From NCBI GenBank assembly GCA_007693335.1, contig REDU01000060.1, forward strand, positions 1-64,000: 64,000 bases of DNA, written 5' to 3'. A model generated the notes under the pieces. It searched no databases. It was given only the letters and a program-made list of their open reading frames with translations, and was not told the origin of the DNA. Below are positions 52,791 through 64,000 of the stretch, piece after piece (the first letter of the stretch is position 1; every line of letters starts with the position of its first letter). Source of the DNA: Ilumatobacter sp. (GTDB lineage: Bacteria; Actinomycetota; Acidimicrobiia; Acidimicrobiales; Ilumatobacteraceae). The translations under genes were made by a program, and so were the position numbers.

Positions 52791-54224
52791 GTGGGGCCGC
52801 TGCAATCGACACCGTCGCAACGACAGCAGGAACGCAAGCAGCTCGGTGCGTGGGCCACCCCGCACGACCTCGTCCAGACCGTGATCGAGCGGAGCATCAC
52901 ATCGGACTGGCTGGCCGCACGATCCGGCCCGGTGCGGGTGCTCGACCCGGCGTGCGGCGACGGACGCTTCCTGCGTGCGGCAGCCCGACGGGTCGCTGAC
53001 CTGGGCGGCAGCAGCGAGCTGACCGGGGTCGACATCGACCCGGCATCGCTCGACCTGATGGCGGGCGACGTCGAGCTGCACGATGTGGAACGGTGGTGCG
53101 CCGACGCCCTGGCGACCGACTGGGGCGACCGCCGCTTCGACCTCGTGGTGGGGAACCCGCCCTATCTGTCGCAGATGTCGGCCCGAACGACCCGCGGTGG
53201 CGCGAGCCGGCACGGCGGCGGACCGTACGCCGACGCCGCCGCCGAGTTCCTCGCGCTGGCGGTGCGACTCGCCGAGACCGATCGCGGCCGGATCGGCCTC
53301 GTGCTCCCACAGTCGATCCTCGCGTCGCGCGACGCCGGCGGAGTGCGCGCCGCCATCGAGCGCTCGGCGGCGATGACGTGGTCGTGGTGGTCGCCCGACC
53401 GGCAGTTCGACGCCGAGGTGGTGGTGTGCGCCCTCGGATTCGAGCGCGCCGCGCCGCTGGCCACCGACCGGGCCGCGCTCGACCCGACCGGGTTCGTTCC
53501 GACCGCGGGAACGGCACTGCCGACGTGGAGCCATGTGGTGGTCGAGCACCTCGGGATCCCCGACCTGCCAGAGCTCCGTGCCGTGGGCACCATCGGCGAT
53601 CGTGCCGGCCTCAACGCCAACTTCCGCGACGAGTACTACGGGCTGGTGCCGGCGGTGGACGATCACGCCGACGGGCCGCCGCTCATCACCACCGGTCTGA
53701 TCGATCCCGGCCGCTGTCACTGGGGCGAACGACCGGTGCGCTTCGCGAAGCGCACCTTCGCAGCGCCACGGGTCGACCGCTCACTGCTCGACGAACGGAT
53801 GCAGCGCTGGGCCTCACGCAAGCTCGTGCCGAAGGTGCTCGTGGCGTCGCAGACGCGCGTGGTCGAGGCCGTGGTCGATGCCGACGGGATGTGGCTCCCG
53901 GGGGTGCCGGTCATCTCGGTGGTGCCGTCGCCGGGGATCGACCCTTGGGAGATCGGCGCGGTCCTCACGTCGCCGGTCGCCACGGTGGCGGTGTGGCACC
54001 AGTCGGCCGGCACCGGGTTGTCGGCCAGCGCGATTCGAATCGGTCCGGCCGGCGTCTCCGCCGTGCCATGGCCGGAGCGCGATCTGGGGCAGGCTGCTCA
54101 GGCACTCCGCGACGGGCAGGTACTCGAGTGCGGCCGGATCGTCACCGACGCGTTCGGCGTGGACGCCGACCATCCGATGGTGGCCTGGTGGACAGAGCGG
54201 ATCGCCCGCCTCTCAGCTGCGTGA
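52791..54224 (+). CDS. N-6 adenine DNA methyltransferase-like protein
   Basis: 477 residues. SAM-binding motif [21 protein letters not shown] (about 50) and catalytic motif [12 protein letters not shown] (about 123) define an N6-adenine methylase of the gamma type; the C-terminal ~230 residues resemble a target-recognition region of class IIG or type I-like enzymes. No endonuclease motif, specificity subunit or phage-defence neighbours are present, so it is probably an orphan methylase. Its 3' end overlaps the convergent anti-sigma gene by 12 bases. Confidence 0.82.
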
Positions 54225-54863
54225 GGTGCGCGCCACCAGGGGTCGGCCTCGCCGGGAGACCCGCTCCCATCCGGGCGACCCGCTGATCATCCACAGCAGG
54301 CCGAGGCCCAGGAGCTCTGCGAGGTGCACCGACTCGGCCAGCACCGTGCTCGATCCGCTCGCGAGGTCGAACACCGCGCCGGCGGACATCGTGACCACGA
54401 GCGCGCCGGCGAACGGCAGGAGACCGAATGCCCGATGCGGGCGCCACGCCGCGTAGAGCAGCCCGATCGCGAGCGCGAACGCGAACGCCCCGAGGTGACG
54501 CGCCACGTGCGTGGGCGCGCCCTCGACCTCGCCGAACACCAGTGGCCCGAGACTCTGCGCCGCGATCACGATCGCGACCCAGGCCAGGGCCGGACGCAGC
54601 CAACCGCCACGGCCGAGACGAGGTGGGCGAGCCCGGTCGAACACCCGCTGGGTCATGTCGGGCACCGGCTCCACCCTGCGGAGGCGAGCGCGTCGGGTGA
54701 GCATGGCCACACGGTCGGCGTGGTCCCGGCATCCGGCACAGTCGGCCAGGTGCGCTTCGAGCAGCGCCTGCTCGTGACGCGTCACCTCGTCGTCGGCCGC
54801 CGCCGACACCAGCTCGCGGACCTGGTGGCACGGAGCGAGGTCGTCGGGCGGAGAAGCTTCCAT
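54213..54863 (-). CDS. Zinc-finger anti-sigma factor-like membrane protein
   Basis: 216 residues. An N-terminal zf-HC2/ZAS domain (CHQVRELVSAAADDEV, HEQALLEAHLADCAGCRDHA; the HxxxCxxC zinc motif at about 38-45), then about four membrane helices (95-200). Such proteins bind an ECF sigma factor at the membrane and release it on a signal. It is divergent from an ECF sigma gene, not co-directional as is usual. ATG at 54863. Confidence 0.85.
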   Translation of the reverse strand: MEASPPDDLAPCHQVRELVSAAADDEVTRHEQALLEAHLADCAGCRDHADRVAMLTRRARLRRVEPVPDMTQRVFDRARPPRLGRGGWLRPALAWVAIVIAAQSLGPLVFGEVEGAPTHVARHLGAFAFALAIGLLYAAWRPHRAFGLLPFAGALVVTMSAGAVFDLASGSSTVLAESVHLAELLGLGLLWMISGSPGWERVSRRGRPLVARTSRS

Positions 54864-54905
54864 GAACGTGACGGTCGACCCTGTGTGTCGAGAAGTTCCC
54901 GGCGA

Positions 54906-54911
54906 GATACT
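54906..54911 (+). promoter_or_regulatory. Possible -10 of the ECF sigma operon
   Basis: GATACT, 6 bases before the GTG at 54918. GTTCCC lies just upstream; no standard -35/-10 pair is evident, so an ECF-type or autoregulated promoter is possible. Confidence 0.4.
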
Positions 54912-54917
54912 GGGAGG

Positions 54918-55496
54918 GTGGATCCCCTCACCCGATTGCTGCTGGACGCCCGGGACGGCGACCGCGACGCGCTCGAGCGGTTCATCGCGCTCACACAGGC
55001 CGACGTGTGGCGACTGTGTCGTCATCTGGGCGACCCCGACACCGCCGACGATCTCGCCCAGGAGACCTACGAGCGTGCCATCGGGTCGCTGCACCGCTAC
55101 CGGGCCGAGGGCCCGGGACGGCACTGGATCCTCACGATCGCCCGCCGAACGTGCGCCGACGGCACCCGTCGACGGTCACGACGCCGTCGCCTCGACGCCC
55201 GTGTCGCCCGGCAACGGAGCATCGAGACCTCGACCACCGAGCGCGTCGAACTGGACGACCTCGTGGCCCGGCTCGATCCCGACCGGCGGGAGGCGTTCGT
55301 GCTCACCCAGGTGCTGGGCCTGCAGTACGCCGAGGCCGCCGAACTGATCGGCTGCCCCGTCGGCACGATCCGCTCTCGGGTGGCCCGGGCCCGGGCCGAT
55401 CTGCTCCACATGTTCGACCCGTCCGAGTCCCGTGACGACGGCACCGACCCCATCGACGGCCCCGGGGAACTCCGCCGGGCCGGCGGACGACCGTGA
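54918..55496 (+). CDS. ECF-type RNA polymerase sigma factor
   Basis: 192 residues. Sigma-2 region LWRLCRHLGDPDTADDLAQETYERAI (about 30-55; WRLCRHLG in 2.1) and sigma-4 LDPDRREAFVLTQVLGLQYAEAAELIGCPVGTIRSRVARARADL (about 112-160). Group 4 (ECF) size, no extra domains. The gene heads a tightly coupled run: its stop overlaps the cytochrome c gene, then SCO1, cupredoxin and a membrane protein follow with 4-base overlaps. The anti-sigma-like gene is divergent. Confidence 0.93.
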   Translation: MDPLTRLLLDARDGDRDALERFIALTQADVWRLCRHLGDPDTADDLAQETYERAIGSLHRYRAEGPGRHWILTIARRTCADGTRRRSRRRRLDARVARQRSIETSTTERVELDDLVARLDPDRREAFVLTQVLGLQYAEAAELIGCPVGTIRSRVARARADLLHMFDPSESRDDGTDPIDGPGELRRAGGRP

Positions 55497-55894
55497 TGGG
55501 TATGCGGCTCCCTCGCGCCCTGGCGGCGCTCGCCACGGCCTCGGTGATCGCGATCGCCGCGGCCTGCGGTGGCTCCGGCCCCGACACCAGCGGTCTCTCC
55601 GCCGTCGCCCAGGACGGTCAGCGGCTGTACGCCAGCCGTGGCTGCGCCGGCTGCCACGGCAGCGACGGCACCGGCGGGATCGGTCCGGCGCTCGCGGGCA
55701 TCGCCGGCACCGAGCGCCAGCTGGTCGACGGCCGCACCGTGGTGGCCGACGAGGAGTACCTCATCCGGTCGATCACCCACCCCGACGACGACATCGTCGC
55801 GGGCTACCGGGTCCGCATGCCCGAGAACGACCTCGGCGCCACCGACGTGGCCGCCCTCGTCGCCTACATCCAGGAACTGGAGTCCACGCCGTGA
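55493..55894 (+). CDS. Cytochrome c lipoprotein (class I, monohaem)
   Basis: 133 residues. Lipoprotein signal with lipobox AAAC (about residue 24), haem site CAGCHG (CxxCH, about 55) and axial Met in YRVRMPEN, as in small c-type cytochromes or cytochrome-oxidase subunit II tails. It would be tethered to the outer face of the membrane as an electron carrier. GTG at 55493 (or ATG 55496) overlaps the sigma gene stop. Confidence 0.9.
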   Translation: MMGMRLPRALAALATASVIAIAAACGGSGPDTSGLSAVAQDGQRLYASRGCAGCHGSDGTGGIGPALAGIAGTERQLVDGRTVVADEEYLIRSITHPDDDIVAGYRVRMPENDLGATDVAALVAYIQELESTP

Positions 55895-56526
55895 TCCGAC
55901 ACCGACCCCGATCCCGACCGGTCCGCACCGTCGCCGCGGCGGTCACGTCCGTGCTGGCAATGATCACCCTCGCCGCGTGCGGTGGTGATCCACCCCGTGA
56001 GCTGGCCGGCTTCGTCCGAGAGCCGGGGCCCACCGTCGACGAGGTGGCGCTCCCCGATCTGAGCCGCGGCGGTGACGAGTTCGCGATGCGGGCCGATCCG
56101 GGCGAGCTCCTCGTGGTCTACTTCGGTTTCACCAACTGTCCCGACGTCTGCCCCACCACGCTGGCCGACCTACGGGCGGCACTCCGCCAGATGGACCCCG
56201 CCGACGCGGCTCGGGTGCAGTTCGCGATGGTGACCGTCGATCCCGACCGCGACTCGCCCGTGCTGGTCGACTACGCCCAGACCTTCGTCGACGACGCCCG
56301 GGCGCTCGCCACCGACGATCCCGCGCTGCTGCGGGCCGCCGCCGACCCGTTCGGGGTGAGCTATGCCATCGAGACCGACGACGACGGCAACATCGAGGTG
56401 GGTCACACCTCGCAGATGTTCGTCGTGGACGATCGAGGTGAACTCGCCCTCACGTGGCAGTTCGGCATCCCGGCCGCCGACATCGCCGCCGATCTCGAGC
56501 AGCTGCTCGCGGAGCGTTCGGCATGA
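55891..56526 (+). CDS. SCO1/SenC family copper chaperone lipoprotein
   Basis: 211 residues. Lipobox LAAC (about residue 27), thioredoxin-like fold with the copper-binding CPDVC in GFTNCPDVCPTTLADL (about 85) and the third ligand His in EVGHTSQMFVVD. SCO proteins load copper into the CuA site of cytochrome oxidase. GTG at 55891 overlaps the cytochrome gene stop (GTGA). Confidence 0.93.
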   Translation: MIRHRPRSRPVRTVAAAVTSVLAMITLAACGGDPPRELAGFVREPGPTVDEVALPDLSRGGDEFAMRADPGELLVVYFGFTNCPDVCPTTLADLRAALRQMDPADAARVQFAMVTVDPDRDSPVLVDYAQTFVDDARALATDDPALLRAAADPFGVSYAIETDDDGNIEVGHTSQMFVVDDRGELALTWQFGIPAADIAADLEQLLAERSA

Positions 56527-56921
56527 GCGCCCCATCGTTCCTCCGGCGACGGGTGATCCCGATCCTGGCGGCTGGTGGTCTGCTGTTCGGCGCCACCGCG
56601 TGCGGCGACTCGGGCACGTCGTCGCCGGGCATCAGCGGTGCGACCGCCGACACCCGGGCCGACTACGAGTACCTCATCCCAGCCGGCACCGGTGAGCGTC
56701 TCGACCAGGGCGAGCGGGTCGAGATCATCCCCGCCGAGCTCGAGGTCAGCGTGGGTGAGGTGCTGCGCATCGTGAACGAGGACGACCGCGGTCACGTGAT
56801 CGGCGCGTTCTACGTGGGTGCCGGTGAGACGCTCAGCCAGCAGTTCTCCACACCGGGCACCCTCGAGGGCGAGTGCTCGGTACATCCGAGCGGATCGTTC
56901 TCGCTCACGGTTCGCGCATGA
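56523..56921 (+). CDS. Cupredoxin-like lipoprotein
   Basis: 132 residues. Lipobox ATAC (about residue 27) and a beta-sandwich with VSVGEVLRIVNEDDRGHVIGAFYVGAGETLSQQF; the copper site could be His in DRGHVIGAF with Cys and His in GECSVHPSG. The expected Met ligand is not obvious, so copper binding is likely but unproved. Overlaps both neighbours by 4 bases. Confidence 0.75.
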   Translation: MSAPSFLRRRVIPILAAGGLLFGATACGDSGTSSPGISGATADTRADYEYLIPAGTGERLDQGERVEIIPAELEVSVGEVLRIVNEDDRGHVIGAFYVGAGETLSQQFSTPGTLEGECSVHPSGSFSLTVRA

Positions 56922-57973
56922 CCCGACGGGCGTGGTCGTCCGCTTCCGGTCGCGCCCTCCTCGCCACCATCGCGGCTGCGGCGGTCCTGCTGATCGCACC
57001 CGCCACCGCCGCGGCCGATCCGGCCGGACCCACCGACTACGAGTCCGAGATCGTCGCCGTCGTCCCGCCCCTCGACACGGTGGAGCTCTCGATCGCCGGC
57101 GGTGACTCGTTCGTCGTGGTCGACGTCGAACGTGGCACCGAGGTCGTGGTGATCGGCAACCAGGGTGAGCACTATCTCCGCATCGACCCCGACGGTCAGG
57201 TGTGGGAGAACCGGCGGTCACCGGACACGTACGCCAACGCCGAGCGCTACGGCATCGGCAGTCTCCCGCCGCAGGCCGATGCCAGCGCCGAGCCCGAATG
57301 GCGACGGGTGGGCAGCGGTGGCACGTGGGCGTGGCACGACCATCGGGCGCACCGGATGGACCCGTTCCCCCCGCTGAACGTCGAACGCGGCGAGGTGGTG
57401 CTCGACGCCGTCGTGCCGCTGCTGGTCGATGGCACCGAGGTGGACGTGCGGGTGTCGAGCGTGTGGATGCCCGCGCCGTCGCCGTGGCCGGGCGTGGTGG
57501 GTGTCGCTCTCGGATTCGCCGCGGTGGTGCTGCTCCGTCGCCGTCCGGCGATCGCGCTGGCGGTCGTGTCGGCCGCCGCGCTCGCGGTCGGCGTGGTCCA
57601 GTTCCGGTCGCTCCCAGCTGCCACCGACCCACTCTGGCTGTGGTGGCTGGCCCCGCTGGTCGGGTTGATCGCGGCGATCGTGGCCGTCGTGCTCGGACGT
57701 CGCAGCTCGAACCGGCGGGAGCACGACACGATCCCCGAGCTGTCGACGATCGGCGCCGTGACCATCTCGGCCCTGCAGCTGCTGGTGTGGTCGTGGGAGC
57801 GACGCAGCGGTCTGTACCGCGCCATCCTCCCCACCGACGCCCCGTTCTGGCTCGATCGACTCGTGACCGGCGCCGCGATCTCGGCGGGCCTGGCTGCGTT
57901 GGTCGTGGTGACCGCGTCGCTGGTGGCCTCGTTCAGGGTGTCGGCGCCAGCGCCCGCTCGATCTCCCGGTTGA
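56918..57973 (+). CDS. Secreted/membrane protein of unknown function in the copper-cytochrome operon
   Basis: 351 residues. Signal peptide (about 10-35, ending AAA), an extracytoplasmic domain (about 36-195; EHYLRIDPDGQVWENRRSPDTYANAERYG and HDHRAHRMD), then about five membrane helices to the C-terminus. The extracytoplasmic part resembles none of the families recognised here; its His-rich WHDHRAHRM could bind metal. The ATG overlaps the cupredoxin stop. Its last 41 bases overlap the convergent tlpA-like gene. Confidence 0.7.
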   Translation: MTRRAWSSASGRALLATIAAAAVLLIAPATAAADPAGPTDYESEIVAVVPPLDTVELSIAGGDSFVVVDVERGTEVVVIGNQGEHYLRIDPDGQVWENRRSPDTYANAERYGIGSLPPQADASAEPEWRRVGSGGTWAWHDHRAHRMDPFPPLNVERGEVVLDAVVPLLVDGTEVDVRVSSVWMPAPSPWPGVVGVALGFAAVVLLRRRPAIALAVVSAAALAVGVVQFRSLPAATDPLWLWWLAPLVGLIAAIVAVVLGRRSSNRREHDTIPELSTIGAVTISALQLLVWSWERRSGLYRAILPTDAPFWLDRLVTGAAISAGLAALVVVTASLVASFRVSAPAPARSPG

Positions 57974-58439
57974 GGTCGTCCACGTCCATCGGTCCGGAGT
58001 GCACCACACTGATCCGACCCTCGGCGTCGGTCACGACCGTGACCGGCAAGGTGACCGTCTCGAGCTCGGCGTTGAGCGCTCCGTCGAAGTCGAGGTAGTT
58101 CTCGAACGTGACACCGACCTCGTCGAGGAACGCCAGCGCCTGGTCTTCTCGATCGCCGATGTTGACGCCGATGAAGCGGACCTGACCCTCGCGTTCGAGG
58201 TGGACCTCCTCGAACTCCGGCATCTCCCGGCGACACGGCGCGCACCACGTGGCCCACAGGTTCACCACCGCCGGGCCCTCCACCGACGCGAGCTGGAGCG
58301 TGCCGGATCCGTCGAGACGGGGCAGCTCGAGATCGGGCAGCGACTGTCCGGTCGCGCCACCACCCGACCCGCAGGCCGACAGCACCAACGCAGCAGCCGC
58401 CACGACCGCCACGATCCGGACCCGCACGTGACCCGTCAT
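57933..58439 (-). CDS. TlpA-like thioredoxin lipoprotein
   Basis: 168 residues. Lipobox LSAC (about residue 23), thioredoxin fold with active site WATWCAPCRREMP (about 66) and cis-Pro in LPVTVVTD. Probably maintains cysteines of the adjacent cytochrome c and SCO1 in the reduced state. Convergent with, and overlapping by 41 bases, the last gene of the ECF operon. Confidence 0.9.
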   Translation of the reverse strand: MTGHVRVRIVAVVAAAALVLSACGSGGGATGQSLPDLELPRLDGSGTLQLASVEGPAVVNLWATWCAPCRREMPEFEEVHLEREGQVRFIGVNIGDREDQALAFLDEVGVTFENYLDFDGALNAELETVTLPVTVVTDAEGRISVVHSGPMDVDDLNREIERALAPTP

Positions 58440-63471: not shown

Positions 63472-64000
63472 TCAACGGCCGTCGTCGACGGCCTGGGTGG
63501 CCGCGAACTCGCGCTCGACGTCGGCCGTGGTGAGCGGGGTCTCGTCGTGACCGACGATCTCCGAGTCGGGCATCCGCCCGCCACGCCGGTACGAGTGCTC
63601 CGCCGAGTAGTCGACGGCGAAGCGCTTGAAGAAGAAATAGACCACGATCGACCAGAGGAAGACGCCACCAGCCAGCTTCATGATGGCGCCGGCGAACTGC
63701 TGATCGGTGATCGCATCGACACCCCAGAGTCGGATCGGCTGCTCGCCGTAGGGGGCGTAGACCACACCCTCGGCGAACACGAGCCATCCGGCGGGGAGAG
63801 TGGGCACCACCGACTGCAGGAACAGGTAGATGCTCGTGGCCAACGGACCCATTCGCCATTCGGGGATGGGGCCGAGCACGGGCATCCACATCAAGAACGC
63901 GGCCGACACGATCATCACGTGGAGGAGGTAGTGCAGGACACCGTTCTCGAGCGACGCGTTGACCAGGTGCGGGATGTGGATGACCATCACCGAGGCGTTG
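63472..64000 (-). CDS. CtaG-like cytochrome c oxidase assembly protein (C-terminal part)
   Basis: At least 175 residues in the window; the 5' end lies beyond 64000, since the frame stays open through NASVMVIHIPHLVN. At least three membrane helices (about 22-40, 48-68, 100-120) and His-containing ends resemble the CtaG/caa3 assembly family (DUF1404-like). The tail is hydrophilic (EIVGHDETPLTTADVEREFAA). Family call rests on helix layout and the HIPHLVN/HYLLHVMIVSAAFLMW pattern, so only moderate confidence. Confidence 0.65.
   Translation of the reverse strand, partial: NASVMVIHIPHLVNASLENGVLHYLLHVMIVSAAFLMWMPVLGPIPEWRMGPLATSIYLFLQSVVPTLPAGWLVFAEGVVYAPYGEQPIRLWGVDAITDQQFAGAIMKLAGGVFLWSIVVYFFFKRFAVDYSAEHSYRRGGRMPDSEIVGHDETPLTTADVEREFAATQAVDDGR

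Follow-up and report, generated by a model that had tools for sequence, protein, structure and literature searches.

What does an extracytoplasmic function (ECF) sigma factor respond to when its gene stands in one run with genes for copper and haem proteins? The question is raised by a locus at positions 54213 to 58439 of a 64,000-nucleotide stretch of DNA from an Ilumatobacter sp. (contig REDU01000060.1 of assembly GCA_007693335.1), referred to here as the window; contig and window coordinates coincide up to position 64000. The original prediction suggested that the sigma factor senses copper or the respiratory redox state. Its link to copper proteins held up, through gene order, kinship with SigC of Mycobacterium tuberculosis and a shared promoter motif. 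At the level of sequence, gene content, conservation, SigC kinship and promoter-like sites are shown below; sensing itself, the copper signal and its direction we infer mainly by analogy with SigC. Copper is favoured as the signal because of the predicted regulon and the published work on M. tuberculosis SigC (PMC7924339). We consider it likely that the locus holds both the control genes and effector genes of a regulon that answers copper limitation and serves cytochrome oxidase. With its conserved SigC-lineage sigma/anti-sigma pair, its promoter sequence and its predicted regulon, small and mostly of copper-delivery genes, it offers a testable picture of how copper shortage may be sensed.

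The sigma factor and its gene neighbourhood

The sigma factor gene (54918 to 55496, + strand) encodes 192 amino acids with Pfam Sigma70_r2 and Sigma70_r4_2 domains. Its best matches in the PDB are domains of M. tuberculosis SigC (2o7g, 1.7e-19; 2o8x, 2.3e-16), and in NCBIfam it scores 161 bits with PRK12535 and 148.2 bits with SigC (NF007231), both under the cut-off (219 bits for SigC); by sequence, the protein is SigC-like and is not filed as SigC. A tree of 59 sequences was built from 32 of the 52 sigma factors encoded beside an anti-sigma gene or a membrane protein gene of the kinds found here, 10 of the 30 mycobacterial SigC proteins, and 17 other ECF sigma factors from the Ilumatobacter genome and one mycobacterium. 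Although the tree comes from a quick, short search and holds several long ECF branches, the 32 locus sigma factors and the 10 SigC proteins were separated from the 17 others by a branch with SH-aLRT support of 100, and mycobacterial SigC was placed among the locus sigma factors with supports of 81 to 87. The window's sigma factor therefore falls, by tree, with the SigC lineage, known in the literature as ECF36, the group to which SigC has been assigned and in which some sigma factors are fused to anti-sigma domains of the DUF2275 type (PMC8999054). The short H37Rv start is the one from which M. tuberculosis translates its SigC (PMC2897130). There SigC is reported to prevent copper starvation, and no anti-SigC factor is reported to be known (PMC7924339).

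Divergent from the sigma gene lies an anti-sigma gene (54213 to 54863, - strand; Pfam zf-HC2, 1.3e-08), whose product joins a cytoplasmic zf-HC2 domain to four transmembrane helices. On the + strand, the sigma gene is followed by genes for a cytochrome c lipoprotein with a CxxCH haem site (55496, or 55502 if leaderless, to 55894; Pfam Cytochrom_C, 1.3e-11), a SCO1/SenC lipoprotein with CxxxC and a distal His (55891 to 56526; Pfam SCO1-SenC, PF02630, 5.8e-27, 94.7 bits), a cupredoxin-like lipoprotein with a conserved H...CxxHP, named by eye (56523 to 56921), and an unnamed membrane protein, hereafter MP (56918 to 57973), with a signal peptide, an outer beta domain carrying the motif WHDHRxHxM and five predicted transmembrane helices. 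A gene for a TlpA/ResA-like thiol-disulfide lipoprotein (57933 to 58439, - strand; Pfam AhpC-TSA, 5.1e-17, / thioredoxin) converges on the MP gene with a tail-to-tail overlap of 41 bases. A lipobox was recognized by eye in each of the cytochrome c, SCO1, cupredoxin-like and TlpA-like products.

All gene positions of the original prediction were reproduced, including the divergent zf-HC2 anti-sigma gene and the converging TlpA-like gene, both by Pfam. Its stop-to-start chain stands for the last three junctions, which overlap by 4 bases each, but not necessarily for the first: the sigma and cytochrome c genes overlap by 1 base if the latter starts at the ATG at 55496, and not at all if it starts at the ATG at 55502, an equally likely start since it lies 10 bases past the CGAC of a promoter-like site at 55465 to 55491.

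To what extent is this neighbourhood kept in relatives? MP is present in 22 of 41 genomes, a set made up of the own genome and others of its genus, family and order. Among named genomes, a scan gave 373 MP relatives, and the best 80, mostly labelled as Acidimicrobiia-type organisms or Actinomycetota, were kept; these 80 loci were collected by the WHDHRxHxM pattern itself, and genes in these and the other loci were called with a simple script and profiles built for this analysis. Neighbours were counted up to 5.5 kb from MP in the 47 loci with at least 4 kb before it and at least 3 kb after it. SCO genes, whose co-occurrence with the 56918 to 57973 protein the original prediction named as a check, were found in 37 of these 47, cupredoxin genes in 36, cytochrome c genes in 29, PCuAC genes in 26, sigma genes in 26 (with the anti-sigma gene in 24), tlpA in 17 and CopC-CopD genes in 3. 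The full order sigma-cytochrome c-SCO-cupredoxin-MP recurs in 10 loci, and the last four genes in the same order, with no sigma gene directly in front, in another 13. Every locus with a sigma gene (26/26) has at least one of SCO, cytochrome c, PCuAC and CopC-CopD. The gene order on which the original prediction leaned is thus conserved in relatives; the genes of the locus are confirmed as real and conserved, in an arrangement beyond chance.

A different arrangement was reached through a profile of the anti-sigma factor, which matches in 200 of 296 genomes of the phylum, mostly with its zinc-finger part alone; among the matches listed, at least about two dozen span most of the protein. Eight loci from one other family of the phylum (L168 and L170-L176) hold sigma, anti-sigma, CopC-CopD and MP genes, with anti-sigma, CopC-CopD and MP following in that order on one strand, and in 7 of the 8 the head of the anti-sigma gene carries the promoter motif described below. 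These loci bear on the proposal that the anti-sigma factor watches the assembly or electron-transfer state of the oxidase (haem c, CuA) and not free copper. A c-type cytochrome heads the operon in the window, and only 5 kb separate the locus from the sole caa3 oxidase genes, as would suit that proposal, but the CopC-CopD-type loci carry the same sigma pair with neither cytochrome c nor SCO, and we regard it as quite improbable.

Promoter-like sites and the predicted regulon

Across the divergent gaps between anti-sigma and sigma genes, GGGAAC and CGAC were found by eye at a fixed distance, pointing to the anti-sigma gene. This promoter motif, written GGGAAC-N17-CGAC, is new in this analysis. 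It was searched for as GGAAC-N(14-20)-CGAC, and the counts that follow omit seven repeat loci (L029, L030, L031, L032, L034, L035 and L037) and partial anti-sigma matches (score of 60 or less, or a late start in the profile), while locus L056 is counted twice, for its cytochrome c head and its sigma/cytochrome c junction. Of 53 anti-sigma loci, 49 have it upstream of the gene, with a spacing of 17 in 48 of 50 matches. The same search placed it before 20 of 32 cytochrome c operon heads, 22 of 27 PCuAC, 5 of 15 sco, 2 of 4 YcnI and 2 of 7 tlpA heads, and before 2 of 32 MP, none of 9 CopCD and none of 3 cupredoxin heads. Where the sigma gene directly precedes cytochrome c, 10 of 14 junctions have a spacing-17 site; the sigma genes themselves have the motif in only 5 of 52 cases, three of which overlap the sigma start codon. 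Over 3.18 Mb of locus DNA, both strands included, 191 matches occur at spacing 17, whereas the 15 other spacings between 10 and 25 have 53.7 on average; from these counts, a chance site per 290-base span is reckoned at about 1 in 220.

An in-frame start codon lies 8-11 bases past CGAC at 41 of 49 anti-sigma, 23 of 28 cytochrome c and 7 of 9 sco sites. This points to leaderless anti-sigma, cytochrome c and sco messages and, given this spacing in relatives, makes 55502 a likely start of the window's cytochrome c.

The window itself has two such sites. One, at 54874 to 54900 on the - strand (GGGAACT-N16-CGAC), is the predicted sigma-dependent promoter of the anti-sigma gene, whose ATG follows 10 bases downstream; the other, at 55465 to 55491 on the + strand, lies inside the 3' end of the sigma gene and is the predicted promoter of the cytochrome c operon. 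The window's list of motif matches shows no exact motif upstream of the TlpA-like gene. Since a predicted site of its own precedes the cytochrome c operon, which in many relatives lies apart from the sigma gene, translational chaining, as described in the original prediction, is not the main tie between the sigma factor and the copper genes. By eye, the sigma gene's own promoter region (54861 to 54920) resembles an ordinary -10 box near the start codon.

In the own genome (3.5 Mb, 93.74% complete), GGGAACY-N16-CGAC has 17 exact matches, against 5 for the reversed control. A weight matrix was made from 112 sites, of which the window supplied two. The top scores that it gives in this genome are those of two PCuAC genes, on contig 85 (25.0) and contig 47 (23.9), and of the anti-sigma gene (23.9); the two PCuAC sites were not used in building the matrix. 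Pfam confirms both PCuAC proteins (2e-29 and 3.1e-24), the only two found in the genome, and the single SCO1 found there is located in this operon. Together with the promoter sequence, the presence of the motif at both PCuAC genes and at the only SCO1 operon of the genome is the most useful result of this work.

Three relatives gave 26 motif matches, 11 of which score at least 22. Ten of these precede PCuAC (3), anti-sigma (2), cytochrome c (2), SCO, lipoprotein and TlpA-like genes, and the remaining one is inside an unrelated gene; the lipoprotein (L249) has His and Cys and belongs to no Pfam family. Seven of the ten sites come from loci that contributed to the matrix, while those in L242 (PCuAC), L249 (lipoprotein) and L254 (TlpA-like) are independent of it. 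A regulon of copper-delivery genes is well supported by these predicted sites, and the sigma factor probably turns on copper-delivery proteins through them. In the open literature we found no paper linking PCuAC, a sigma factor, a regulon and copper, although the main ECF classification paper lay outside this search and may hold part of the link.

Would such a regulon serve the oxidase? In other bacteria TlpA, Sco1 and PCuAC jointly build the CuA site, and chaperones of the Sco1/PCuAC type matter most at low copper (PMC7558416). The same three protein types occur here. Compared with that assembly system, SCO1 and PCuAC would stand under one predicted ECF regulon, the cytochrome c, cupredoxin-like and WHDHRxHxM proteins are added, and the window's TlpA lacks an exact motif site. 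COX2 matches a single protein of the genome, one that also has a cytochrome c domain, and there is a single caa3 oxidase gene run (contig 63472 to 73383), which begins 5 kb past the TlpA-like gene and whose 3' end in the window is a Caa3_CtaG gene (63472 to 64000, reaching contig position 64380, - strand). Pfam was run on four genes of the run (Caa3_CtaG, COX1, COX2 and UbiA); the others were named by eye.

A regulon of this kind could also answer copper excess and not copper shortage. CopC-CopD, YcnI and P-type ATPase genes accompany MP in some relatives, and CopD has been read as a resistance as well as an uptake protein (PMC7558416). However, the own genome has, on another contig (L233), a separate copper-efflux locus that looks CsoR-CopZ-CopA-like by eye, and the sole motif match listed there, scoring 17.6, is antisense inside the copper-ATPase-like gene; none of the 11 sites scoring at least 22 in the three relatives precedes an efflux gene. 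Moreover, SCO1 and PCuAC are most needed at low copper (PMC7558416) and SigC acts at low copper (PMC7924339). Copper excess as the signal is, in our judgement, unlikely.

Several results weigh against a copper-limitation regulon serving the oxidase. The loci are mutually related, so that the counts are not independent. Three loci (L166, L167 and L169) have the sigma pair and none of the searched copper-partner genes nearby, and 6 of the 47 MP loci are without any such partner. The motif is absent at 4 of 53 anti-sigma, 12 of 32 cytochrome c, 10 of 15 sco, 5 of 27 PCuAC, 5 of 7 tlpA and all 9 CopCD heads, and the start spacing is weak for PCuAC, with a start 8-11 bases past CGAC at 9 of 26 sites. 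The sigma factor is below the SigC cut-off, as given above. No exact motif precedes the oxidase genes in contig 60000 to 75725, where the original prediction proposed to look for the sigma factor's promoter motif; the sole exact GGAAC-N17-CGAC of that interval, at 69062, is on the strand opposite to them. Finally, the window's cytochrome c site has a modest matrix score of 16.5, below three sites of the own genome with no copper-chaperone gene downstream: one inside a transporter gene (L232, 21.4), one at the start of a peroxiredoxin-like gene (L230, 18.4) and the antisense site of L233. What speaks for the cytochrome c site is thus where it lies and that such a site is conserved at 10 of 14 junctions, and not its score.

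The anti-sigma factor and its mycobacterial counterparts

With zf-HC2 the window's anti-sigma factor scores 35.2 bits (cut-off 22.2). Its AlphaFold2 (AF2) model (predicted local distance difference test, pLDDT, 88.6; predicted template modelling score, pTM, 0.62) has three zinc-finger helices and four membrane helices, at residues 89-110, 118-140, 142-169 and 179-193. In an alignment of 50 sequences, H119 is invariant and E177 and H180 are kept in at least 90%, and the predicted topology puts all three on the outer face; the zinc-site residues C12, H38, C42 and C45 are invariant as well. A fold search with the anti-sigma factor returned only weak matches to the anti-sigma domains of MucA, RsiW and RslA (E of 1 or more).

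These residues allow a second signal to be weighed, namely that the pair senses thiol redox, with the zf-HC2 zinc site oxidized as in RsrA and the sigma factor answering oxidative or respiratory redox stress. The invariant zinc site fits, as do a weak match of the RsrA model (4.6e-05, below cut-off) and the fact that cytochrome c, SCO1 and TlpA are redox proteins; one high-scoring site precedes a TlpA-like gene, and the middling 18.4 site of the own genome lies at the start of a peroxiredoxin-like gene. Nevertheless, H119 in the membrane part is no less invariant than the zinc site, and E177 and H180 come close to it, although a thiol switch in the cytosol would have no need of such conservation; the high-scoring sites, too, are mainly before copper chaperones. 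We hold thiol redox to be an improbable signal.

For copper limitation, the following mechanism is proposed. The anti-sigma factor would tether the SigC-type sigma factor to the membrane. H119, E177 and H180 would form a site at the outer helix ends that stands empty when external copper is scarce, and the sigma factor would then be released to start transcripts at the predicted GGGAAC-N17-CGAC promoters, probably leaderless for the anti-sigma and cytochrome c genes. Its predicted targets are the cytochrome c-SCO1-cupredoxin-MP operon and the two unlinked PCuAC genes, and the anti-sigma gene as a further target would provide negative feedback. SCO1, PCuAC and TlpA, by chemistry known from other bacteria, would then supply copper to the CuA site of the one caa3 oxidase, while the cupredoxin-like and WHDHRxHxM proteins may bind or pass on copper.

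Among described systems, CorE and CorE2 of Myxococcus xanthus are likewise ECF sigma factors tied to metal, but CorE senses by a Cys-rich C-terminal extension (PMC8999054), whereas the window's sigma factor lacks a Cys-rich tail and is accompanied by an anti-sigma gene. The ECF36-DUF2275 fusions resemble the pair in their membrane anti-sigma domain of 3-4 helices (PMC8999054); the window's anti-sigma factor differs in being unfused and is not recognized by DUF2275 (Pfam PF10039, no match at E 0.1). SigC of M. tuberculosis is alike in lineage, in the tree with the 17 other ECF sigma factors, and in its copper role (PMC8999054; PMC7924339), and its mycobacterial relatives have a zf-HC2 membrane domain homologous to that of the window, with the same motif next to sigC. 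It differs in that the window's anti-sigma factor is a separate divergent gene and the window's sigma factor lies below the SigC cut-off. The predicted targets differ as well: CuA chaperones in the window, ppe1-nrp and ctpB for M. tuberculosis SigC (PMC7924339).

The mycobacterial comparison covered the best 30 sigC loci (L190-L219), plus L183. Anti-sigma and sigma share one open frame in 26 of the 30; the others have separate tandem frames (L212 and L213), a different frame (L217) or a remnant only (L192). The frames of L183 and L193 match DUF2275 with 149.6 and 119.9 bits, and the ECF36/DUF2275 fusion is already in print and not new here (PMC8999054). Differences in the linker of the fusions fall on codon positions 1, 2 and 3 as 363/287/480, a weak coding signal. 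In most of these mycobacterial loci the homologous part has an outer loop bearing His, or His and Met (for example HMHGAMSGEHLMHE). The N17 motif lies just upstream on the opposite strand in 23 of the 30 sigC loci, and by eye it precedes a PPE-like gene in each of the 13 loci inspected, which were L183 and 12 of the 30. The gene in L183 (6300-7499, + strand) matches Pfam PPE and points away from the frame shared by anti-sigma and sigC. In M. tuberculosis, ppe1 is among the known targets of SigC (PMC7924339).

A broader proposal, which we put forward tentatively and hold somewhat short of an even chance, is that the outer His/Glu/His ring of the anti-sigma factor is a copper sensor, and that the same module, beside or fused to mycobacterial sigC, is the missing sensor of SigC-type copper starvation, lost in M. 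tuberculosis. If true, an ancient actinobacterial copper-limitation switch would act through one promoter, GGGAAC-N17-CGAC, on oxidase metallation in Acidimicrobiia and, in mycobacteria, on PPE/metallophore-type genes.

Two loci of probable mycobacteria hold a second anti-sigma homologue (L178, 5758-6468, - strand; L180, 5763-6371, - strand), with no sigma match in the stretch and GGAAC-N17-CGAC upstream in both. By eye, that of L178 adjoins ArsR-like and cobalt-transport-like genes.

The unnamed membrane protein and the cupredoxin-like protein

Neither MP nor the cupredoxin-like protein reaches the cut-off of any Pfam or NCBIfam family, in line with the original description of MP as unrecognized. 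The AF2 model of MP (pLDDT 91.9) consists of a signal helix, a beta domain and five membrane helices, and WHDHRxHxM occupies residues 139-147 of the outer domain. This motif is invariant in 20 of 20 aligned sequences, the window's and 19 relatives taken from 28 similarity matches, which were gathered independently of the motif and many of which lie in copper loci; the CopCD loci, found through the anti-sigma factor, are likewise independent of the pattern. Such conservation suggests that WHDHRxHxM is a copper site, and it would bring an unnamed protein family into copper biology. The external domain had been called His-rich; it does have this one conserved cluster, for which His-rich is too strong a term.

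Foldseek found no match for the MP structure in the PDB (best E 0.076). VIA-align covered mainly helices 201-344, and the Z scores of the 50 rows shown, 6.4 to 11.7, are common for helical bundles, which leaves the outer domain with no assigned fold. Nothing but short matches to designed beta-trefoil chains came from a profile search of the PDB, and we attribute them to chance. The Pfam families of CopC, CopD and YcnI match neither the window's MP nor its relative in L171, although such genes adjoin MP in some loci. The cupredoxin-like protein keeps H, C and H in 8 homologues and has no axial Met at the place usual in the type-1 copper ligand set.

Two further observations concern MP loci. In L042 (8132-9115, + strand) and L044 (4108-5100, - strand), MP is followed by a lipoprotein-like protein of 327-330 amino acids, without a Pfam match in the case of L042, beside CopC-CopD and P-type ATPase-like genes. 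Loci L108 and L119 come from records titled Acidobacteria and Thermoanaerobacterales, and may reflect mislabelled assemblies or transfer.

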